Below, in pieces: positions 41,718-52,104 of a stretch of DNA of 64,000 bases. This DNA is from Massilia niastensis DSM 21313. GTDB lineage: Bacteria > Pseudomonadota > Gammaproteobacteria > Burkholderiales > Burkholderiaceae_D. Where the stretch lies: contig NZ_KB908076.1 in the NCBI RefSeq assembly GCF_000382345.1, forward strand, positions 124,001 through 188,000. The letters are read 5' to 3'. Below the pieces are notes generated by a model, which ran no database searches, had not been told where the DNA came from, and was given only the letters and a program-made list of their open reading frames with translations. Made by a program: the position numbers and the translations under genes. Numbering within the stretch: the first letter of the stretch is position 1; each line of letters starts with the position of its first letter.

Positions 41718-41894
41718 ACTTTTGATTCGTGATCTCATCGATACAAATTATGAATAACTGTCGCTTTATCCTCAGGCAAGATATTTGTTGCAGGAATGTC
41801 TGCGCTGTCGAGGCATGAATAAGAAGGGCATTGCCGCAGAGTATTTTCCTGGGGCATGAGGACGGGTGGTGCGAATCTTGCATTCAACCGGTGC

Positions 41895-42539
41895 ATGAAA
41901 CCGCCCCACAACGCCTCATCCCATCTGCGCATCGTTGTCGTGCTGCCGGCCACGCCGCCGGGCGCCGATCCCGACCAGGCGCTGGCCGCCCAGGCCCGGC
42001 GCAGCGCCGCGCTGCGCATCGGCCTGCTCGAATCGGGCTACGACCTGGTCGCCTCGCTGCCGGCGGACGTCTTCCTGCCCGAGCGCATCGCCCAGCTGCA
42101 GCCCGACCTGATCATCGCCGACAGCGAGTCCGACGCGCGCGACATCCTGGAGCACGTCGTGATCGCCACCCGCGACGAGCGCCGCCCGATCGTGCTGTTC
42201 ACCGAGGACGACGCGCCGGCCAGCATGGATGCCGCGATGGCGGCGGGCGTGTCCGCCTACATCGTGGCGGGCCTGCAGCCGGAACGGGTCAAGGCGGTAC
42301 TCGACGTGGCGCTGGCGCGCTTCCGGCGCGAGCAGAAGCTGCTCGACGAACTGTCCGACACGCGCCAGAAGCTGGCCGAGCGCAAGGTCGTCGACCGCGC
42401 CAAGGGCCTGCTGATGGCGCGCTACCGCTTGACCGAGGAGCAGGCCTACCAGCGCCTGCGCAGCATGGCCATGAACAAGAACCTGAAGCTGGCGGAAATC
42501 GCCCAGCGCATACTCGATGTGGAAGACCTGCTGGGCTGA
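41895..42539 (+). CDS. nasT: ANTAR-domain antitermination regulator NasT
   Basis: 214 aa from ATG 41895 (an alternative ATG lies at 41856). Residues 10-140 are a receiver-like fold in which the usual acidic pair is missing (VVVLPATPPGAD) while LIIADSES keeps an Asp. Residues 155-214 are the ANTAR RNA-binding domain: AERKVVDRAKGLLMAR and EEQAYQRLRSMAMNKN. NasT binds two hexaloop hairpins in the nas leader to prevent termination and is held by NasS when nitrate is absent. Both hairpins are seen at 43894-43934. Confidence 0.9.
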   Translation: MKPPHNASSHLRIVVVLPATPPGADPDQALAAQARRSAALRIGLLESGYDLVASLPADVFLPERIAQLQPDLIIADSESDARDILEHVVIATRDERRPIVLFTEDDAPASMDAAMAAGVSAYIVAGLQPERVKAVLDVALARFRREQKLLDELSDTRQKLAERKVVDRAKGLLMARYRLTEEQAYQRLRSMAMNKNLKLAEIAQRILDVEDLLG

Positions 42540-42559: not shown

Positions 42560-43729
42560 ATGGCAGCTTTGGCAGGCAAGGGCGCGTGGGCGCTTGGCTC
42601 GGACCGCCCCGAGATCGAGACCGTCAGGATCGGCTTCATGCCGGTGGCGGACTGCGCCCCGGTGGTGATGGCCTCGGTGCTCGGCCTGGACGAGAAGCAT
42701 GGCGTGAAGTTCGCGTTGAGCCGGGAGCAGTCCTGGACCGGCATGCGCGACCGGCTGCTGAGCGAGGAACTGCATGCGGGCCAGGTGCTGTACGGGATGC
42801 TGTACGGCGTCCAGATGGGGATCGGCACCCAGCGCCGCGACATGGCGGTGCTGATGAACCTGAACCAGAACGGGCAGAACATTACGCTGTCGCGCGCGCT
42901 GGCGAGCTGCGCCCACGATCCGGTCGCGCTCAGGCGGCTGGTGTATGCCGAGCGCAGGCGCCTGACCTTCGCGCATACCTTCCCGACCGGGAACCATGCG
43001 ATGTTCCTGTATTACTGGCTGGCGGCGGCGGGCATCGATCCGTCCGCGGACTGCCAGGTGGTCACCGTGCCGCCCGGCCAGATGGCGAACAGCCTGGCGG
43101 CCGGCCACATGGACGGCTTCAGCGCCGGCGAGCCCTGGGGCCTGCGCGCGCAGCGCGACGGCGCGGGCATCCAGGCCGCATCGAGCGAGCAGGTCTGGCC
43201 CAACCATCCGGGCAAGGCGCTGGGCGCCCTGGCCAGTTTCGCGGACCGGCACCCGAACACCTGCCGCGCCACGATCGCGGCCATGCTGGAGGCGGCGCGC
43301 TGGCTGGACGCCTCGCGCACCAACCGCGAAGCCGCGGCCGAGGTGCTGGCCAGCCCGGGCTACGTCAACGCCAGCCGCGAACTGCTGCAGTACTGCCTGG
43401 CGGGCCGCCAAGGCGCGGGAGGCAAATGGCGCGGCCACAACGGCCTGCGCTTCCATGCCGACGGCGAGGCGAATTTTCCCTGGCTGTCGGACGGCATGTG
43501 GTTCCTGACCCAGCACCGGCGCTGGGGCCTGCTGCGCACCGATCCGGCCTACCGCGCGGTCGCGCTCGAGGTCCAGCGCATCGGCCTGTACCGCGAGGCG
43601 GCCGAGCTGACCGGCACACCTCTGCCGGAAGGCAACATGCGCAAGTCGGTGCTGATGGATGGGCGGGTATGGGATGGCCTCGACCCCACGACCTACCTGG
43701 ACGGGTTCGCGCACCCGCATGCGGCATGA
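42560..43729 (+). CDS. nasS: Nitrate/nitrite sensor NasS (NrtA-like, cytoplasmic)
   Basis: 389 aa. Homologous to NrtA/CmpA nitrate-binding proteins: IRIGFMPVADCAP-like opening (VRIGFMPVADCAPVVMA), TFAHTFPTGNHAMFLYYWL, DGFSAGEPWG, and HPNTCRATIAAML. No signal peptide precedes it and no nitrate ABC transporter permease is nearby, which fits the soluble NasS that sequesters NasT until nitrate or nitrite binds. AGGAGA precedes the ATG, 20 bases after nasT. Confidence 0.88.
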   Translation: MAALAGKGAWALGSDRPEIETVRIGFMPVADCAPVVMASVLGLDEKHGVKFALSREQSWTGMRDRLLSEELHAGQVLYGMLYGVQMGIGTQRRDMAVLMNLNQNGQNITLSRALASCAHDPVALRRLVYAERRRLTFAHTFPTGNHAMFLYYWLAAAGIDPSADCQVVTVPPGQMANSLAAGHMDGFSAGEPWGLRAQRDGAGIQAASSEQVWPNHPGKALGALASFADRHPNTCRATIAAMLEAARWLDASRTNREAAAEVLASPGYVNASRELLQYCLAGRQGAGGKWRGHNGLRFHADGEANFPWLSDGMWFLTQHRRWGLLRTDPAYRAVALEVQRIGLYREAAELTGTPLPEGNMRKSVLMDGRVWDGLDPTTYLDGFAHPHAA

Positions 43730-43833
43730 GTAGCGCATGCGCAGTGCATGGAAACGCATCATTCTTGGGCATGGTGCACTGCAATGTAGCGCAGGCGGCC
43801 CCCGTACTGACGTCTTTCCCTCACGGGCGTACA

Positions 43834-43849
43834 TGGCACGGGTCTTGCA
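43834..43849 (+). promoter_or_regulatory. Sigma-54 promoter of the nas operon
   Basis: TGGCACG-GGTC-TTGCA matches the RpoN -24/-12 consensus, with GG at 43835-43836 and GC at 43847-43848. Transcription should begin near 43860, just upstream of the antitermination leader. Upstream inverted repeats with GTGCA half-sites (GCAGTGCATG at 43741-43750 and ATGGTGCACTGC at 43771-43782) may be NtrC sites; this is weaker. Confidence 0.8.
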
Positions 43850-43893
43850 CATAGTCTTGCAGGATCAACGGCGATCTCTTTACAAAATTCAAC

Positions 43894-43934
43894 GCTAGCC
43901 TAACGAGGGGCCGGCAACCTGGACAACGGCGTCC
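43894..43934 (+). promoter_or_regulatory. ANTAR (NasT) two-hairpin RNA motif
   Basis: Hairpin P1: GCCT-AACGAG-GGGC at 43898-43911, with the stem extended to 43894-43915 across one mismatch. Hairpin P2: GGAC-AACGGC-GTCC at 43921-43934. Both are hexaloops with A at loop position 1 and G at position 4, the known ANTAR recognition rule. The 3' arm of P2 overlaps the 5' arm of the terminator, so NasT binding excludes termination. Confidence 0.85.
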
Positions 43935-43978
43935 GCTTTCCTGCATCAAGTGCTGGAGTGCGGACGCCTTTTTGTTTT
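43928..43978 (+). terminator. Regulated leader terminator of the nas operon
   Basis: Stem GGCGTCCGC (43928-43936) pairs with GCGGACGCC (43960-43968), loop 23 bases, then TTTTTGTTTT. It lies 13 bases before the nitrate transporter ATG and shares its 5' arm with hairpin P2. It is the off state of the leader. Confidence 0.9.
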
Positions 43979-43991
43979 CAAAGGAAAAGAC

Positions 43992-45290
43992 ATGGCCAGC
44001 AAAGCGGACAGTATCAAGCTCTTCTCGTTCTCAGACGCACCGATGCGTGCCTTCCACCTGACCTGGATGGCCTTCTTCGTATGCTTCTTCGCCTGGTTCG
44101 CCTGCGCACCGCTGATGCCGGTGATCAAGGGCGAATTCGGGCTCTCGATGGAACAGATCGCCAACATCAACATCGCCGCCGTCGCGATCACCATCTTCGT
44201 GCGCCTGGTGATCGGTCCGCTGTGCGACCGCTTCGGCCCGCGCAAGGCCTATACCGGCCTGCTGCTGCTCGGTTCCATCCCGGTGCTGGGCGTGGCGATG
44301 TCGCAGAGCTACGAGAGCTTCCTGCTGTTCCGCCTGGGGATCGGCGCCGTCGGCGCCAGCTTCGTGATCACCCAGTACCACACCTCGGTGATGTTCAGCC
44401 CGAAAGTGGTCGGCACCGCCAACGCGGCGACGGCCGGCTGGGGCAATGCCGGCGGCGGCGCCGCGCAGGCCTTGATGCCGCTGCTGCTGGGCGCGGTCAC
44501 CATGCTGGGCGTCAGCCAGGCGCTGAGCTGGAGGGTGGCGCTGGTGGTGCCGGGCATCCTGATGATCATCATGGCCTTCGTCTACTGGAACTATACCCAG
44601 GACTGCCCGGCCGGTAACTACGACGACCTGCGCAAGGCCGGCACCCTGCCGGAAGGCAGCGGCAAGGGCGGCTGGGCCAGCTTCACGGCCGCCTGCCGCA
44701 ACCACCGCGCCTGGCTGCTGTTCATCACCTACGGCGCCTGCTTCGGCATCGAGATCTTCATCCATAACATCGCCGCCGTGTACTTCGTCGATCACTTCGA
44801 CCTGACCCTGGGCCAGGCCGGCATGGCCGTCGGCGGCTTCGGCCTGCTGGCCCTGTTTGCCCGCGCCCTGGGCGGCATGCTGTCGGACCGCTTCGCCCGC
44901 AACGGCGACCTGAACCGTCGCATCACCGTGCTGTTCGTGATGATGATCGGCGAAGGCCTGGGCCTGCTGTGGTTCGCCAACGCCGAGGGCGTGGCCTACG
45001 CCGTGATCGCGATGCTGTGCTTCGGCCTGTTCACCCACATGGCCTGCGGCGCCACCTATGCGCTGGTGCCCTTCGTGGCGCCCAAGGCGCTGGGCGGCGT
45101 GGCCGGCATCGTCGGCGCGGGCGGCAACGTCGGCGCGGTGGCGGCCGGCTTCCTGATGAAGGGCACCGGCGACATCAAGCAGACCCTGATGATCCTGAGC
45201 GTCCTGGTGCTGGTAGCCAGCATCTGCGCGCTCGCGGCACGTTTCACCCTGACCGCCGCCGAATCGGCGCCGGCAGTTTCGGCAGCATAA
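43992..45290 (+). CDS. Nitrate/nitrite MFS transporter (NarK/NasA type)
   Basis: 432 aa with 12 membrane segments. Nitrate-signature glycine-rich helix is seen as AATAGWGNAGGGAAQALMPLL, cut here into AATAGWGN and GGGAAQALMP, and IVGAGGNVGAVAAGFLMKGTG in the second half; conserved Arg in helix 2 (IFVRLVIGPLCDR). Imports nitrate for assimilation. AAAGGAAAAG precedes the ATG at 43992, just after the leader terminator. First structural gene of the nas operon. Confidence 0.93.
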   Translation: MASKADSIKLFSFSDAPMRAFHLTWMAFFVCFFAWFACAPLMPVIKGEFGLSMEQIANINIAAVAITIFVRLVIGPLCDRFGPRKAYTGLLLLGSIPVLGVAMSQSYESFLLFRLGIGAVGASFVITQYHTSVMFSPKVVGTANAATAGWGNAGGGAAQALMPLLLGAVTMLGVSQALSWRVALVVPGILMIIMAFVYWNYTQDCPAGNYDDLRKAGTLPEGSGKGGWASFTAACRNHRAWLLFITYGACFGIEIFIHNIAAVYFVDHFDLTLGQAGMAVGGFGLLALFARALGGMLSDRFARNGDLNRRITVLFVMMIGEGLGLLWFANAEGVAYAVIAMLCFGLFTHMACGATYALVPFVAPKALGGVAGIVGAGGNVGAVAAGFLMKGTGDIKQTLMILSVLVLVASICALAARFTLTAAESAPAVSAA

Positions 45291-45304: not shown

Positions 45305-47833
45305 ATGCATATCGTCGTCATCGGCCACGGAATGGTTGGCCACAAATTCGTCGACACCCTGGCGGCCAGCGGCCGCACGGACGTGCGCGTCACGGTACTG
45401 GGCGAGGAACCGCGCCCGGCCTACGACCGGGTCCACCTGTCGGAATTCTTCTCCGGGAAGACCGCGCAGGACCTGTCGCTGGTCGAGCCGGGCTTCTTCG
45501 ACCGCGACGGCCTGGCGCTGCGCCTGAACGCCCAGGTGGTGGCGATCGACCGCGCCGCCAGGGTGGTGACCCTGGCGGGCGGCGAGGAAGTCGCCTACGA
45601 CAAGCTGGTGGTGGCCACCGGCTCCTATCCCTTCGTGCCGCCGGTGCCGGGCTCCGACCGCAAGGACTGCTTCGTCTACCGCACCATCGAGGACCTGGAA
45701 GCGATGCAGGAATGCGGCGAGCGCTCGCGCACCGGCGTGGTGGTCGGCGGCGGCCTGCTGGGCCTGGAATGCGCGAAAGCGCTGCGCGACCTGGGCCTGG
45801 CGGCCCACGTGGTGGAATTCGCGCCGCGCCTGATGGCGGTGCAGGTCGACGATCCGGGCGCGCGCGTGCTGCGCACCCGCATCGAGGAACTGGGCGTGGG
45901 CGTGCACACGCAGAAGAACACCCTGGCCATCGTCGACGGCGAGGAGGCCACCCACCGCATGCAGTTCGCCGACGGCAGCCACCTCGAGACCGACATGATC
46001 GTGTTCTCGGCCGGCATCCGCCCGCGCGACGAGCTGGCGCGCACCTCCGGCCTCACCATCGGGCCGCGCGGCGGCATCGTGATCGACGACAGCTGCCTGA
46101 CCTCCGACCCGCATATCTACGCGATCGGCGAATGCGCGCTGTGGAACGGCCAGCTGTTCGGCCTGGTGGCGCCGGGCTACGACATGGCGCGCACCGCCGC
46201 GCGCCACGTGCTGGGCACCGAAGCCGGCTTCACCGGCGCCGACATGAGCACCAAGCTGAAACTGATGGGCGTGGACGTGGCCAGCATCGGCGACGCCCAT
46301 GGCGCAACGACGGGCAGCCGCAGTTACCAGTTCCTGGACGAGCGCAAGCAGATGTACCGCAAGATCGTGGTGTCCGACTGCGGCAAGTACCTGCTCGGCG
46401 CGGTGCTGGTGGGCGACGCCTCGCCCTACGGCAGCCTGCTGCAGACCATGCTCAACCGCATCGAACTGCCGGAAGCGCCCGAATTCCTGATCCTGCCGGA
46501 CGGCGGCGGCGCGGAGCGCCCGGCGATCGGCGTCGACAAGCTGCCGGCCAGCGCCCAGGTCTGCTCGTGCAACGACGTCTCGAAGGGCGCCCTGTGCGCC
46601 GCGGTCGAAGGCGGCGCCGCCACGCTCGGCGAGCTGAAGAGCTGCACCAAGGCCGGCACCGCCTGCGGCGGCTGCGTGCCCCTGATGACCCAGGTGATGA
46701 ACGCCGAGCTGAAGAAGCTGGGCGTGGCCGTCAATAATCACCTGTGCGAACACTTCCCGTATTCGCGCCAGGAGCTGTACCACCTGGTGCGCGTGGAAGG
46801 CATCAAGAGCTTCGGCGAACTGCTGGAGCGCCACGGCAAGGGCCTGGGTTGCGACGTCTGCAAGCCGACCGCCGCCAACATCCTGGCCTCGGTGTGGAAC
46901 GACTTCGTGCTCAAGCCGAAGCACGCCAGCCTGCAGGATTCGAACGACTACTTCCTCGGCAACATCCAGAAGGACGGCACCTACTCGGTGGTGCCGCGCA
47001 TGCCGGGCGGCGAAGTGACGGCCGACGGCCTGATCGCGGTGGGCATGGTCGCCAAGAAGTACGGCCTGTACACCAAGATCACCGGCGGCGCGCGGGTCGA
47101 CATGTTCGGCGCCCGTGTCGAGCAGCTGCCCCTGATCTGGGAAGAGCTGATCGCGGCCGGCTTCGAATCCGGCCACGCCTACGGCAAGTCGCTGCGCACC
47201 GTGAAGTCCTGCGTCGGCTCGACCTGGTGCCGCTACGGCGTCGGCGACAGCATCGGCTTCGGGATCGCGCTGGAAAACCGCTACAAGGGCCTGCGCGCCC
47301 CGCACAAGATCAAGTTCGGCGTGTCGGGCTGCACCCGCGAGTGCGCCGAGGCGCAGGGCAAGGACGTGGGCCTGATCGCCACCGACAAGGGCTGGAACCT
47401 GTACGTGTGCGGCAACGGCGGCATGAAGCCGCGCCACGCCGAGCTGCTGGCCACCGACCTGGACGACGCCACCGCGGTGCGCCTGATCGACCGCTTCCTG
47501 ATGTTCTACGTCCGCACCGCCGAGCGCCTGCAGCGCACCAGCGTGTGGCGCGAGAACCTGGAAGGCGGGCTGGAATACCTGAAGCAGGTGGTGGTCGAGG
47601 ACAGCCTGGGCCTCGGCGCCGAACTGGAAGCGCAGATGCAGCACGTGGTCGACACCTACGCCTGCGAATGGAAGGAAGCCGTCACCGACCCGGCCGTGCG
47701 CAGCCGCTTCCGTCACTTCGTCAACAGCGAGCAGGGCGACGAGAACGTCGTGTTCGTGCCTGAGCGCGGCCAGATCCGCCCGGCCGCACCCGATGAACGC
47801 CGCCGCACCATTCCCATTGCCAGCGCCGCCTGA
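45305..47833 (+). CDS. nirB: Nitrite reductase large subunit
   Basis: 842 aa, normal for NirB. Residues 1-300 are FAD and NAD binding (HIVVIGHGMVGHKFVD, VVVGGGLLGLECAKAL). Residues around 419-470 are a BFD-like [2Fe-2S] site (CSCNDVSKGALC, CTKAGTACGGC). The C-terminal half holds the sulfite/nitrite reductase ferredoxin-like and sirohaem domains, with cysteines in SCVGSTWC and GCTREC. Reduces nitrite to ammonium with NAD(P)H in the cytoplasm. Fifteen bases after the transporter. Confidence 0.96.
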   Translation: MHIVVIGHGMVGHKFVDTLAASGRTDVRVTVLGEEPRPAYDRVHLSEFFSGKTAQDLSLVEPGFFDRDGLALRLNAQVVAIDRAARVVTLAGGEEVAYDKLVVATGSYPFVPPVPGSDRKDCFVYRTIEDLEAMQECGERSRTGVVVGGGLLGLECAKALRDLGLAAHVVEFAPRLMAVQVDDPGARVLRTRIEELGVGVHTQKNTLAIVDGEEATHRMQFADGSHLETDMIVFSAGIRPRDELARTSGLTIGPRGGIVIDDSCLTSDPHIYAIGECALWNGQLFGLVAPGYDMARTAARHVLGTEAGFTGADMSTKLKLMGVDVASIGDAHGATTGSRSYQFLDERKQMYRKIVVSDCGKYLLGAVLVGDASPYGSLLQTMLNRIELPEAPEFLILPDGGGAERPAIGVDKLPASAQVCSCNDVSKGALCAAVEGGAATLGELKSCTKAGTACGGCVPLMTQVMNAELKKLGVAVNNHLCEHFPYSRQELYHLVRVEGIKSFGELLERHGKGLGCDVCKPTAANILASVWNDFVLKPKHASLQDSNDYFLGNIQKDGTYSVVPRMPGGEVTADGLIAVGMVAKKYGLYTKITGGARVDMFGARVEQLPLIWEELIAAGFESGHAYGKSLRTVKSCVGSTWCRYGVGDSIGFGIALENRYKGLRAPHKIKFGVSGCTRECAEAQGKDVGLIATDKGWNLYVCGNGGMKPRHAELLATDLDDATAVRLIDRFLMFYVRTAERLQRTSVWRENLEGGLEYLKQVVVEDSLGLGAELEAQMQHVVDTYACEWKEAVTDPAVRSRFRHFVNSEQGDENVVFVPERGQIRPAAPDERRRTIPIASAA

Positions 47834-47856: not shown

Positions 47857-48204
47857 ATGCCCCGTGACCTTCAGCAGGATAACTGGACCGCGATCTGCGC
47901 CATCGACGAGATCGTCCCCGACACCGGCGTCTGCGCGCTGATGAATGGCCGCCAGGTGGCGGTGTTCCGGATCGGCGAAGAAGCGCCGCGCGTGTTCGCG
48001 ATCGATAACTTCGATCCGAATTCGGCCGCGGCCGTGCTGTCGCGCGGCCTGGTCGGCAGCATCGGCGAGCGCATCGTGGTGGCCTCGCCGATCTACAAGC
48101 AGCATTTCGACCTCGAGAGCGGAGAATGCCTGGAGGCGCCGCAGCATTCCGTGACCAGCTACCCGGCCCGGCTGGAAGGGGGCAAGGTATGGATAGCGGC
48201 GTAA
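47857..48204 (+). CDS. nirD: Nitrite reductase small subunit
   Basis: 115 aa, NirD-type Rieske fold. Opening WTAICAIDEIVPDTGVCAL and the core VFAIDNFDPNS followed by SPIYKQHFDLESGEC fit NirD. The Rieske cluster ligands are absent, as is usual for this subunit, so it is structural. TAGGAG precedes the start. The next gene begins inside its last codons (16-base overlap). Confidence 0.93.
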   Translation: MPRDLQQDNWTAICAIDEIVPDTGVCALMNGRQVAVFRIGEEAPRVFAIDNFDPNSAAAVLSRGLVGSIGERIVVASPIYKQHFDLESGECLEAPQHSVTSYPARLEGGKVWIAA

Positions 48205-49418
48205 AACCCAGGCTGGTCGTGGTGGGCAACGGCATGGCCGGCATGCGCACCGTCGAGGAATTGCTGGCGCTCGCGCCCGGCATGTACGACATCACGGTGT
48301 TCGGCGCCGAGCCGCGCACCAACTACAACCGCATCATGCTCTCGCCGGTGCTGGCCGGCGAGAAGGACTTCGACGAGATCGTGCTGCACACGCGCGAATG
48401 GTATGCGGAGCACGGCATCACCTTGCACGCGGGCGACCCGGTGGTGGGCATCGACCGCCGCCGCCGCGTGGTGCGCGCGCAGTCGGGCTGCGAAGTCGCC
48501 TACGACCGGCTGCTGCTGGCCACCGGCTCCAGCCCCTTCATCATCCCGGTGCCGGGTTCGCAGCTGGCGGGGGTGGTCGGCTTTCGCGACCTGGACGACG
48601 TCGAGACCATGCTGCAGGCGGCGCGCCAGGGCGGCCGCGCGGTCGTGATCGGCGGTGGCCTGCTCGGGCTGGAAGCGGCCAACGGCCTGCTGCGGCGCGG
48701 CATGGAAGTCACGGTGGTGCACCTGACCGACAGCCTGCTCAACCAGCAGCTCGACAGCAGCGCCTCGCTGCTGCTCAAGGCGGCGCTGGAGCGCCGCGGC
48801 CTGCGCATCCAGCTGTCGGCCCAGACCGCCGCGATCCTCGGCACGGATAAAGTGGAGGGCGTGCGCTTCCAGGACGGCAGCGAGGCGCCCGCCGAGCTGG
48901 TGGTGATGGCGGCCGGCGTGCGTCCCAACGTCAGCCTGGCGCGCGAGGCCGGCCTGCACGTCGAGCGTGCGATCGTGGTCGACGACACCCTGCAGACCTA
49001 CGACCCGCGCGTCTACGCCGTCGGCGAATGCGTCCAGCACCGCAAGAACACCTTCGGGCTGGTGGCGCCGATCTGGGACCAGGCGCGCGTGTGCGCGGCC
49101 CACCTGGCGGGCTTCGGCCACCGCCGCTACGTGCAGCAGGCCACCGCCACCAAGCTGAAGGTCACCGGCATCGACCTGTACTCGGCCGGCGACATCGTCG
49201 GCGGCGAGGGCAGCGAAGACCTGGTGCTGCGCGACCGCCGTTCCGGCATCTACAAGCGCCTGGTCCTGGCCGGCAACCGCGTCACCGGCGCGGTGCTGTA
49301 CGGCGACGTGGCGGACGGTCCCTGGTATTTCGACCTGATCCAGCGCGGGGCCGATGTTTCCGGTTATCGCGACCGCCTGCTGTTCGGGCCTGCGCTGTGC
49401 GAGGCGCAAGCCGCGTGA
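48189..49418 (+). CDS. FAD/NAD(P)-dependent reductase for nitrate assimilation (NasB-like)
   Basis: 409 aa. FAD Rossmann start RLVVVGNGMAGMRTVEELL, NAD site VVIGGGLLGLEAANGLL, and YAVGECVQHR near residue 280; closing pyridine-disulfide-like dimer domain. It resembles the N-terminal part of NirB without the iron-sulfur and sirohaem parts. In nas operons such proteins feed electrons from NAD(P)H to nitrate reductase. It overlaps nirD by 16 bases and ends ten bases before the nitrate reductase gene. Confidence 0.87.
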   Translation: MDSGVKPRLVVVGNGMAGMRTVEELLALAPGMYDITVFGAEPRTNYNRIMLSPVLAGEKDFDEIVLHTREWYAEHGITLHAGDPVVGIDRRRRVVRAQSGCEVAYDRLLLATGSSPFIIPVPGSQLAGVVGFRDLDDVETMLQAARQGGRAVVIGGGLLGLEAANGLLRRGMEVTVVHLTDSLLNQQLDSSASLLLKAALERRGLRIQLSAQTAAILGTDKVEGVRFQDGSEAPAELVVMAAGVRPNVSLAREAGLHVERAIVVDDTLQTYDPRVYAVGECVQHRKNTFGLVAPIWDQARVCAAHLAGFGHRRYVQQATATKLKVTGIDLYSAGDIVGGEGSEDLVLRDRRSGIYKRLVLAGNRVTGAVLYGDVADGPWYFDLIQRGADVSGYRDRLLFGPALCEAQAA

Positions 49419-49428
49419 AGGAGTGACG

Positions 49429-52104
49429 ATGTTGAAGAAAGTGGAAGCGATCCGCACCACCTGCCCGTATTGCGGCGTGGGTTGCGGCGTCAAGGCCACG
49501 CCGCTGGGCGAGGGCGAGGCGAAGATCGAGGGCGACGAGGACCATGCGGCGAACCGGGGACGCCTGTGCGTCAAGGGTTCGGCGCTGGGCGAGACGCTGG
49601 GCCTGGACGGCCGCCTGCTGCATCCGGCCATCCGCGAGGAGGGCAAGCTGCGCCAGGCGGGCTGGGACGAGGCGCTGGACAAGGTCGCGGGCAGCCTGTC
49701 GCGCATCATCGCCGAGCATGGCCCGGACGCGGTGGCGCTGTACGTCTCCGGCCAGATCCTGACCGAGGACTACTACGTCGCCAACAAGTTCATGAAGGGC
49801 TATGTCGGCAGCGCGAACATCGACACCAATTCGCGCCTGTGCATGTCCTCGGCCGTGGCCGGGCACAAGCGCGCCTTCGGCGAGGACGTGGTGCCCGGCT
49901 GCTACGAGGACTTCGAGCTGGCCGACATGATCGTGCTGGTCGGCTCGAACGCCGCCTGGTGCCACCCGACCTTGTTCCAGCGCATCGTCAAGGCCAAGGA
50001 AGCGCGTCCCGGACTGCGCATCGTCGTCATCGACCCGCGCCGCACCGCCACCTGCGAGCTGGCCGACCTGCACCTGCCGGTCAAGCCCGGCGCCGACGTC
50101 GCGCTGTTCAACGGCCTGCTGGCCTGGCTGGCGCGCCACGGCGCAGCCGACCAGGCCTTCGTCGAGGCCCATACCGAAGGCCTGGAAGCGGCGCTGGCGG
50201 CGGCCGACGGCGAGCTGGAGGACGTGGCGCGCGCCTGCGGGCTCGATCCGGCCCTGCTGCGCGACTTCTACGAATCCTTCGCCGCCACCGAGAAAGTGGT
50301 GACCGCCTTCTCGATGGGCGTGAACCAGTCCACCAGCGGCACCGACAAGGTCAACAGCATCATCAACTGCCACCTGCTCACCGGCCGCATCGGCAGGCCC
50401 GGCATGGGGCCGTTCTCGCTGACCGGCCAGCCGAACGCGATGGGCGGGCGCGAGGTCGGCGGGCTGGCCAACATGCTGGCCGCCCACCTCGATATCGACA
50501 ATCCGGCCCACCGCGAGGCCGTGCGCAGCTTCTGGAACGCCCCGCGCATCGCGCAGAAGCAGGGCCTGAAGGCGGTCGACCTGTTCCGCGCGGTGGAAGA
50601 GGGCAAGGTCAAGGCGGTCTGGGTCATGGCCACCAATCCGGTGGTCAGCATGCCCGACGCCGACCAGGTGCGGCGCGCGCTGGCGGCCTGCGAACTGGTG
50701 GTGGTGTCGGACGTGGTGGCGGGCACCGACAGCGCCGCCTTCGCGGACGTGCTGCTGCCGGCCCTGGCCTGGGGCGAGAAGGACGGCACCGTCACCAATT
50801 CCGAGCGCTGCATCTCGCGCCAGCGCGCCTTCCTGCCGGCGCCGGGCGAAGCGCGCGCCGACTGGGACGCGCTGTGCGGCGTGGCGAAGCGCATGGGCTA
50901 TGAGGGCTTCGACTACGCCGGCGCCCACGAGATCTTCGACGAGCACGCGCGCCTGTCGGTGTGGCGCAATGCCGAAGACGGACATCCGCGCGCCTTCCGC
51001 CTCGATCCGCTGGTGGGAATGGACCGCGCCGCCTATGACGCGCTGGACCCGGTCCAGTGGCCGCTGCGCAGCCGCGGCGAAGGCACGGCGCGTCTGTTCG
51101 CCGGCGGCGGCTTCTCGCATCCGGGCGGCAGGGCGCGCTTCATCGCCACCGTGCCGCGCGCGCCGGTGAACGCACCCGGCGGCGAATTCCCGCTGGTGCT
51201 GAACACCGGCCGCCTGCGCGACCAGTGGCACACGATGACGCGCACCGGCAAGTCGCCGCGCCTGGCGGGCCACGCGCCCGAACCCTTCGTCGACCTGCAT
51301 CCGCACGACGCCCTGCTGTGCGGCGTGCGCGAGGGCGAGCTGGCGCGCGTGACCAGCCGCTGGGGCGCCATGGTGGCACGCGTCGCCCATGGCGGCGGCA
51401 TCGCGCGCGGGGCGGCCTTCGTGCCGATCCACTGGAACGGCCAGACCGCGTCCGATGCGCGCGTGGGCGCGCTGGTCAACCCGGAAGTCGATCCGGTCTC
51501 GGGCGAGCCCGAGTTCAAGCACACACCGGTGCGGATCGAGCCCTTCGGCGTGAACTGGCACGGCTTCATCCTGAGCCGCGACGAGCTCCAGCTCGAGCGG
51601 ATCGCCAACTGGACCCGGGTGCGCGGCAGCGGTTTCCTGCGCTACGAGCTGGGCGGACGCGAACCGGTCTCGCCCGAGTGGGCGCGCGCGCTGCTGGGCG
51701 CGGACGAGGAGGCGGACTGGATCGAATACCAGGACAAGGCCGGGGGCATGCTGCGCGCGGCGCTGGTGGTCGACGGACGGCTGCAGGCCTGCGTGTTCGT
51801 GGCGCGCCGTCCCGATCTGCCGTCGCGCGCCTGGCTGGGCGGACTGTTCGCGCAGGAACTGCTGGACAGCGCCGACCGCGCGACCCTGCTGGCGGGCCGT
51901 GCGCCGGCCCTGGGACCGGATCCGGGACCGACCGTGTGCTCCTGCTTCGGCGTGGGACGAAATACGATCTGTGCGGCGATCCGGGACAAGGACCTGAAGA
52001 CGGCGGGCGAGGTGACGGCCTGCGTGAAGGCGGGCGGCAACTGCGGCTCGTGCGTGCCGGAGATCAGGAAGCTGCTGGACGAAGTGCGCTGCGCGGAAAC
52101 CTGA
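49429..52104 (+). CDS. nasA: Assimilatory nitrate reductase catalytic subunit
   Basis: 891 aa. N-terminal [4Fe-4S] ligands in CPYCGVGC (residues 12-19) and GRLCVKG; molybdenum-bis-PGD domains with the presumed Mo-Cys in NSRLCMSSAVAG near 138; a molydopterin dinucleotide-binding C-terminal part; and a final BFD-like [2Fe-2S] site from about 835 (CSCFGVGRNTIC, GGNCGSCVPEI). No Tat signal, so cytoplasmic and assimilatory. Reduces nitrate to nitrite for NirBD. Paracoccus naming would call it nasC. Confidence 0.95.
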   Translation: MLKKVEAIRTTCPYCGVGCGVKATPLGEGEAKIEGDEDHAANRGRLCVKGSALGETLGLDGRLLHPAIREEGKLRQAGWDEALDKVAGSLSRIIAEHGPDAVALYVSGQILTEDYYVANKFMKGYVGSANIDTNSRLCMSSAVAGHKRAFGEDVVPGCYEDFELADMIVLVGSNAAWCHPTLFQRIVKAKEARPGLRIVVIDPRRTATCELADLHLPVKPGADVALFNGLLAWLARHGAADQAFVEAHTEGLEAALAAADGELEDVARACGLDPALLRDFYESFAATEKVVTAFSMGVNQSTSGTDKVNSIINCHLLTGRIGRPGMGPFSLTGQPNAMGGREVGGLANMLAAHLDIDNPAHREAVRSFWNAPRIAQKQGLKAVDLFRAVEEGKVKAVWVMATNPVVSMPDADQVRRALAACELVVVSDVVAGTDSAAFADVLLPALAWGEKDGTVTNSERCISRQRAFLPAPGEARADWDALCGVAKRMGYEGFDYAGAHEIFDEHARLSVWRNAEDGHPRAFRLDPLVGMDRAAYDALDPVQWPLRSRGEGTARLFAGGGFSHPGGRARFIATVPRAPVNAPGGEFPLVLNTGRLRDQWHTMTRTGKSPRLAGHAPEPFVDLHPHDALLCGVREGELARVTSRWGAMVARVAHGGGIARGAAFVPIHWNGQTASDARVGALVNPEVDPVSGEPEFKHTPVRIEPFGVNWHGFILSRDELQLERIANWTRVRGSGFLRYELGGREPVSPEWARALLGADEEADWIEYQDKAGGMLRAALVVDGRLQACVFVARRPDLPSRAWLGGLFAQELLDSADRATLLAGRAPALGPDPGPTVCSCFGVGRNTICAAIRDKDLKTAGEVTACVKAGGNCGSCVPEIRKLLDEVRCAET

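Follow-up and report, generated by a model that had tools for sequence, protein, structure and literature searches.

ANTAR proteins bind hairpins with a six-base loop that has A at position 1 and G at position 4 (A1/G4), and hold an antiterminator (PMC3369931, PMC3369936). Two such hairpins are the rule (PMC3369931), and NasR binds a pair with an affinity of ~1 uM, versus ~12 uM for a single hairpin (PMC7496416). A EutV dimer occupies a single hexaloop at any moment, and the proposal is that it sits first on a recruitment hairpin and is then transferred to the antiterminator hairpin. The 2022 EutV-RNA structure leaves unanswered why a leader needs two hexaloops when the dimer binds just one of them at a time (PMC8934654). 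NasS holds NasT until nitrate or nitrite releases it, and NasT binds RNA of the nasA leader (PMC3795266). ANTAR genes with predicted sigma-54 promoters have also been noted (PMC12316311). Here and below, statements on published systems follow the available portions of the papers cited.

We analysed a window, i.e., the whole 64,000-nucleotide stretch of DNA, in which a leader precedes a nitrate-assimilation operon. One of the closest described leaders is that of nasF in Klebsiella oxytoca. Like the arrangement proposed for the window, it combines NtrA (sigma-54), NtrB and NtrC with nitrate-dependent ANTAR antitermination (PMC5424462), and it has A1/G4 loops and a second hairpin that overlaps the terminator (PMC3369931, PMC7496416, PMC3369936). 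However, as described in these sources, it has two hairpins and a one-component regulator, NasR, whereas the window has three hairpins and NasT/NasS. Paracoccus denitrificans resembles the window in having nasTS upstream of the operon, and its NasT binds the nasA leader with nitrate (PMC3795266, PMC5424462). Mutations were made there in both hairpins of the leader, HI and HII, and growth on nitrate was compared between a chromosomal HI mutant and a nasT mutant (PMC3795266). It differs in that two hairpins are described, and that the NtrC site is placed at nasT while the site at nasA is called unidentified in the available text (PMC5424462). The Enterococcus faecalis eut leaders, which belong to EutV, also have A1/G4 hexaloops and a P2 that overlaps the terminator, and a recruitment hairpin followed by an antitermination hairpin was proposed for them (PMC8934654). 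By contrast, they have two hairpins, as far as these sources describe them, and serve an ethanolamine system. The eut type is defined by exactly two hairpins; the window leader falls outside this definition by a third one, which we call P0.

A sigma-54/NtrC promoter gate followed by ANTAR antitermination is already known from Klebsiella and Paracoccus (PMC5424462, available text). The window probably holds double control of this known kind, in a variant with three conserved hairpins. In the portions of the literature that were searched, we found no ANTAR leader with three hexaloops in series. The region is probably the control region of the nitrate-assimilation operon, with two gates in series and three docking hairpins. 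Its features are the following.

41856..42539, + strand: nasT, ANTAR antiterminator protein (PF03861, 77.5 bits, residues 168-220)
42560..43729, + strand: nasS, nitrate-sensor-like protein (PF13379, NMT1-type domain)
43755..43771, + strand: NtrC-like enhancer dyad, CGCATCATTCTTGGGCA, 79 nt before the promoter TGG, predicted from its sequence
43834..43849, + strand: sigma-54 promoter, TGGCACGGGTCTTGCA, a sequence match
43862..43877, + strand: hairpin P0, GGAUC-AACGGC-GAUCU, hexaloop AACGGC, from the leader fold
43894..43915, + strand: hairpin P1, hexaloop AACGAG, the canonical upstream (recruitment) ANTAR hairpin
43920..43935, + strand: hairpin P2, hexaloop AACGGC, antiterminator, whose 3' arm is common with the terminator
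43928..43978, + strand: intrinsic terminator, with stem 43928-43968 and U-tract T5GT4 at 43969-43978
43992..45290, + strand: NarK/NasA-type nitrate/nitrite MFS transporter, gene 1 of the controlled operon
45305..47833, + strand: nirB, nitrite reductase large subunit (TIGR02374, 1126 bits)
48189..49418, + strand: NasB-like FAD/NAD(P)H reductase
49429..52104, + strand: assimilatory nitrate reductase catalytic subunit (NasA/NasC-like molybdopterin enzyme), below equivalog cut-offs

The first-pass annotation had placed nasT and nasS upstream of the leader, and the Pfam matches at 41856-42539 and 42560-43729 bear this out. PF03861 is the sole Pfam match of the nasT product at E<=0.001. The transporter scores 295.2 bits against TIGR00886, slightly under the cut-off of 311.7. 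A small ORF at 47857-48204 lies between nirB and the NasB-like gene, presumably in the nirD position.

The sigma-54 site that was initially reported, TGGCACG-GGTC-TTGCA at 43834-43849, is the sole zero-mismatch match in the window, and its GG and GC elements are correctly spaced. With up to two mismatches, the pattern matches 7 times in the window versus 14 expected, so the weak matches are attributable to chance. Across the whole genome, TGGCAC-N5-TTGCW occurs 15 times, and a reversed control occurs twice. One RpoN match in the genome is over the cut-off. By the rule of 12 nt past the GC element, which we assume to hold here, transcription starts at ~43860. Upstream of the transporter, the promoter core TGGCA[CT]-N7-GC is present at 74 of 78 family loci. 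An NtrC-like pattern occurs upstream of 65 of 75 family leaders, versus 0.8 expected from shuffles, an expectation that serves as a guide and not as a probability, since the pattern was picked post hoc from the sequences and the relatives share kinship. The pattern is found in 6/10 leaders of the window's own genus group and in 6/11 of group g40.

Downstream of the promoter, the initial reading had recognized two A1/G4 hexaloop hairpins. Both of these, P1 and P2, are present, but a third, P0, was overlooked, and the window leader thus has three hairpins with six-base loops carrying A1 and G4. P0 starts ~2 nt past the inferred transcription start, i.e., at the 5' end of the RNA. The pair closing the loop is C-G in P0 and P2 and U-G in P1, whereas a selection with NasR favoured C-G (PMC7496416, available text). 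The 4-5 nt between P1 and P2 fit the linker of 5-12 nt given for eut leaders (PMC3369931, available text), while the 16 nt between P0 and P1 are longer. The overlap of the P2 3' arm with the terminator 5' arm, also proposed at first, consists of bases 43928-43935, and T5GT4 is followed, as had been stated, by 13 bases up to the transporter ATG at 43992.

The terminator stem folds at -30 kcal/mol (z -6.0), and this contributes strongly to the z of -3.8 for the whole leader. A terminator scan of the window does not list this intrinsic terminator, probably owing to the scan's loop limit of 8. The folding energies of the small hairpins are no better than those of shuffled sequences: 28/200 shuffles fold at least as well for P1, 30/200 for P2, 27/200 for P1 and P2 together, and 63/200 for the leader up to 43945. 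We therefore dropped folding energy as support for P1 and P2, and the case for the small hairpins is made by loop sequence and relatives. In the 72-nt segment before P2, there are two A1/G4 hexaloop hairpins (at least 4 pairs, at least 2 of them G-C), while shuffles average 0.025 and 0/200 reach two.

The transporter is present in 78 of 195 genomes of the family. We aligned 74 distinct transporter leaders; the hairpins were read from the alignment for leaders L026 (P1 and P2) and L091 (P0). P0 is present in 71/74 leaders. The three without it (L062, L064 and L076) belong to one genus group, keep the promoter, P1 and P2, and have the promoter ~30 nt closer to P1. Loop positions A1, A2 and G4 are invariant in P0 (71/71), P1 (74/74) and P2 (74/74). 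Position 3 varies in all three hairpins, and all four bases occur there in P0. The P0 loop lies 18-23 nt past TTGC in 68 of the 71 leaders. Under a strict hairpin rule, 65 of the 74 leaders have two hexaloops before P2 and 9 have one, versus 0.03 expected. The pair closing the P1 loop is U-G in 30/74 leaders and C-G in 44/74.

The first-pass annotation had named the loss of hairpin pairing in close relatives as an observation that would count against its reading. Pairing is kept, and the P0 and P1 stems covary. In P0, 99.7% of cells are paired and 2/5 pairs have changes on both sides; for P1 the figures are 90.2% and 5/8. The P2 stem is 100% paired and nearly invariant, with 0/4 pairs changed on both sides. 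Across the 74 leaders, P2 shows no covariation of its own, because its pairs hardly vary, and its conservation is inseparable from that of the terminator. The terminator itself is 99.8% paired, with 1/8 pairs changed on both sides, a count matched by 394/500 shuffles. When the consensus is folded freely, the terminator stands where P2 would be. Among 500 letter shuffles, none reaches the three-helix structure in percentage paired, in cells changed on both sides or in covariation score, while its count of doubly changed pairs is equalled by 11 and its number of pair types by 1. On each of the five measures the structure also scores above all slid versions, an advantage to which its having been written from one of the aligned sequences contributes.

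The 80 nearest transporter relatives that we kept, which overlap with the family genomes, are mostly from Massilia, Janthinobacterium, Herbaspirillum, Duganella, Rugamonas and Collimonas. In 77 of them, both the P0 pattern and the promoter core are present. The other three are L299 and L307, which are cut by contig ends, and L333, which has a promoter without the P0 pattern.

For a wider search we used a covariance model, R1, that covers P0, P1 and the terminator. R1 matches 115 of the 195 family genomes, and 81 of 300 genomes in the order, where 6 of its 88 matches are in the family. Of the 55 further family matches, which lie outside the 74 leaders, approximately 31 have at least three hexaloops and 19 have two, while 1 has P2 alone and 4 are unclassified. 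For the 82 matches outside the family, the likewise approximate counts are 26 with at least three (10 family groups) and 42 with two (18 family groups), with 4 having P2 alone and 10 unclassified. The three-hexaloop plan thus extends beyond the 74 transporter leaders, but is not universal.

Outside the family, leaders with a clear promoter have their first loop 20-23 nt past TTGC in 24/34 two-hexaloop and 12/16 three-hexaloop cases. In the 16 with three hexaloops, the last gap, between the P2 loop and the loop before it, is 21-25 nt. In two-hexaloop leaders, gaps range from 20 to 78 nt. Where the gap is at least 39 nt, 7/18 contain a strong hairpin of another kind (P<=0.05, mononucleotide shuffles) and 11/18 have no significant hairpin. 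Two of these long-gap leaders, L117 and L131, have a strong hairpin with another loop type at the place of P1.

Every genome with an R1 match in the family has an ANTAR regulator (115/115). In 106 of them it is a NasT match (E<=1e-20), of which three (G014, G037 and G134) are weak, at 39-43% identity. The other 9 have another ANTAR protein of the NIT-ANTAR (NasR-type) architecture, 7 by Pfam scan and 2 by similar sequence. NasT matches occur in 130/195 family genomes in total, and 24 of these genomes have no R1 match at E<=0.001; they have either a NasT without this leader or a leader that is too divergent. Seven of the 9 NasR-type genomes are in genus group g26 (L198-L204). Among the eleven aligned leaders of g26, 7 are in NasR-type genomes and 4 in NasT genomes, and all three loops are present in 11/11, although two of the leaders from NasT genomes, L088 and L090, have a weak P1 stem. 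The two remaining NasR-type genomes (L205 and L206) are in group g30 and have two-hexaloop leaders (L241 and L250). The genome of the window encodes a second ANTAR protein, L207 (C75:22985-23140), with a true receiver domain.

Two Rfam families share parts of this plan. The narK RNA (RF03032) has sigma-54 promoter elements in its model and a start-proximal AACGGC loop, like the window, but two hexaloops where the window has three. The window scores 16.6 bits against it, under the gathering score of 43.2. In the order, 15/150 genomes have an RF03032 match at E<=0.001, and one match exceeds the cut-off. Nine of the ten narK RNA loci that we read contain a promoter, two hexaloops, of which the first is start-proximal, and a terminator; the tenth (L164) shows two hexaloops. 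Most of the narK RNA matches L095-L104 are upstream of proteins that, by eye, resemble NasS or nitrate-binding proteins. A match to RF03032 in the genome of the window is uninformative, as 13/14 control genomes also match at E<=10. Two candidates, L039 and L040, were set aside as coding-like. The Pseudomonas P11 family (RF00625) resembles the window in having, in order, a promoter-like stretch, an AACG loop, GGAC-AAAGGC-GUCC and a terminator arm. It differs in having two hexaloops and in being annotated as an sRNA, and the window scores 17.4 bits against it, under the gathering score of 70. At gathering scores, the whole window matches just a tRNA, away from the leader.

The earlier reading, that the promoter needs nitrogen limitation and readthrough needs nitrate, is supported in each of its parts by comparative evidence; the roles of NtrC, nitrate and NasT here would follow those of their homologues. 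At the first gate, sigma-54 RNA polymerase would start at ~43860 only when nitrogen limitation lets phosphorylated NtrC act from 43755-43771. At the second gate, NasS would hold NasT when nitrate is lacking, and the terminator would halt transcription before the transporter gene. With nitrate, freed NasT would bind hexaloop hairpins in the nascent RNA and hold P2, whose 3' arm would then be unavailable to the terminator. The hairpins would emerge in the order P0, pinned to the transcription start, then P1, at the canonical distance from P2, and lastly the antiterminator P2.

Our inference for P0 is that it serves as an additional recruitment site, on which NasT is loaded early, while P1 and P2 have yet to be transcribed. 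P0 may also be dispensable or have another role, given that it is lacking in L062, L064, L076 and L333, and that two hexaloops are seen in 19/55 further family matches and 42/82 outside the family. We tentatively consider a relay, somewhat against our expectations, in which NasT is loaded on P0 as the polymerase clears the promoter and is passed from P0 to P1 to P2, the RNA being a docking array for NasT or NasR-type proteins. A relay would explain both the pinning of P0 to the start site and the fixed last gap, and the g26 array, which is served by either NasT or NasR-type proteins, would be a common docking array for both.

Other divisions of labour among the hairpins are conceivable. The leader could be an ordinary two-hairpin ANTAR attenuator made of P1 and P2, with P0 as a NasT-free hairpin at the 5' end that protects the mRNA or aids promoter escape. 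The P1-P2 spacing fits known pairs, 3/74 relatives manage without P0, and the position of P0 is tied to the start site and not to P1. However, a stability hairpin needs no such loop as that of P0, with A1, A2 and G4 invariant in 71/71 and position 3 free, and in the narK-type leaders that we read, the A1/G4 hairpin that precedes P2 is the start-proximal one. We therefore regard this explanation as unlikely. Still less probable, in our judgement, is that P0 and P2 are the working pair and P1 is mainly a spacer that joins them. This idea draws on the strong intervening hairpins in 7/18 long gaps (at least 39 nt) outside the family, e.g., L117 and L131, yet the other 11/18 have no significant hairpin, the P1 loop has A1, A2 and G4 in 74/74 family leaders, and the leaders that lack P0 keep P1.

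The activator could also be different. We think it very improbable that the sigma-54 promoter is served by a protein other than NtrC, such that the first gate answers a signal other than nitrogen limitation. The dyad resembles the NtrC motif quoted in the available text of PMC5424462, with mismatches, and ntrC is present in the genome. Other activators do exist, as the NtrC model has 16 matches at E<=1e-50 in the genome of the window, one of them over the cut-off, and the NtrC-like pattern is absent in 10/75 leaders.

With three likely docking hairpins versus the textbook two, the leader offers a natural test of how ANTAR RNA switches work. The three-hexaloop leader can be set beside natural relatives that lack P0 or that have two hexaloops at short or long spacing, and deletions can test the need for multiple hexaloops. 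The relay, if true, would give the proposed model of recruitment and hand-off in ANTAR action an example from nature. In genus group g26, one three-hairpin leader is kept, with NasT in some species and NasR-type proteins in others. The comparison also ties the narK RNA and P11 families, by sequence, to the plan of an ANTAR leader started by sigma-54.

The genome of the window has no R1 match at E <0.8 away from the window leader; the next matches have E 0.87 (antisense, at the same place), 1.98 and 7.25. Elsewhere, in G442, two R1 matches on contig C1, at 563423-563549 (- strand) and 563826-563952 (+ strand), diverge as if they were a common control of two divergent operons.
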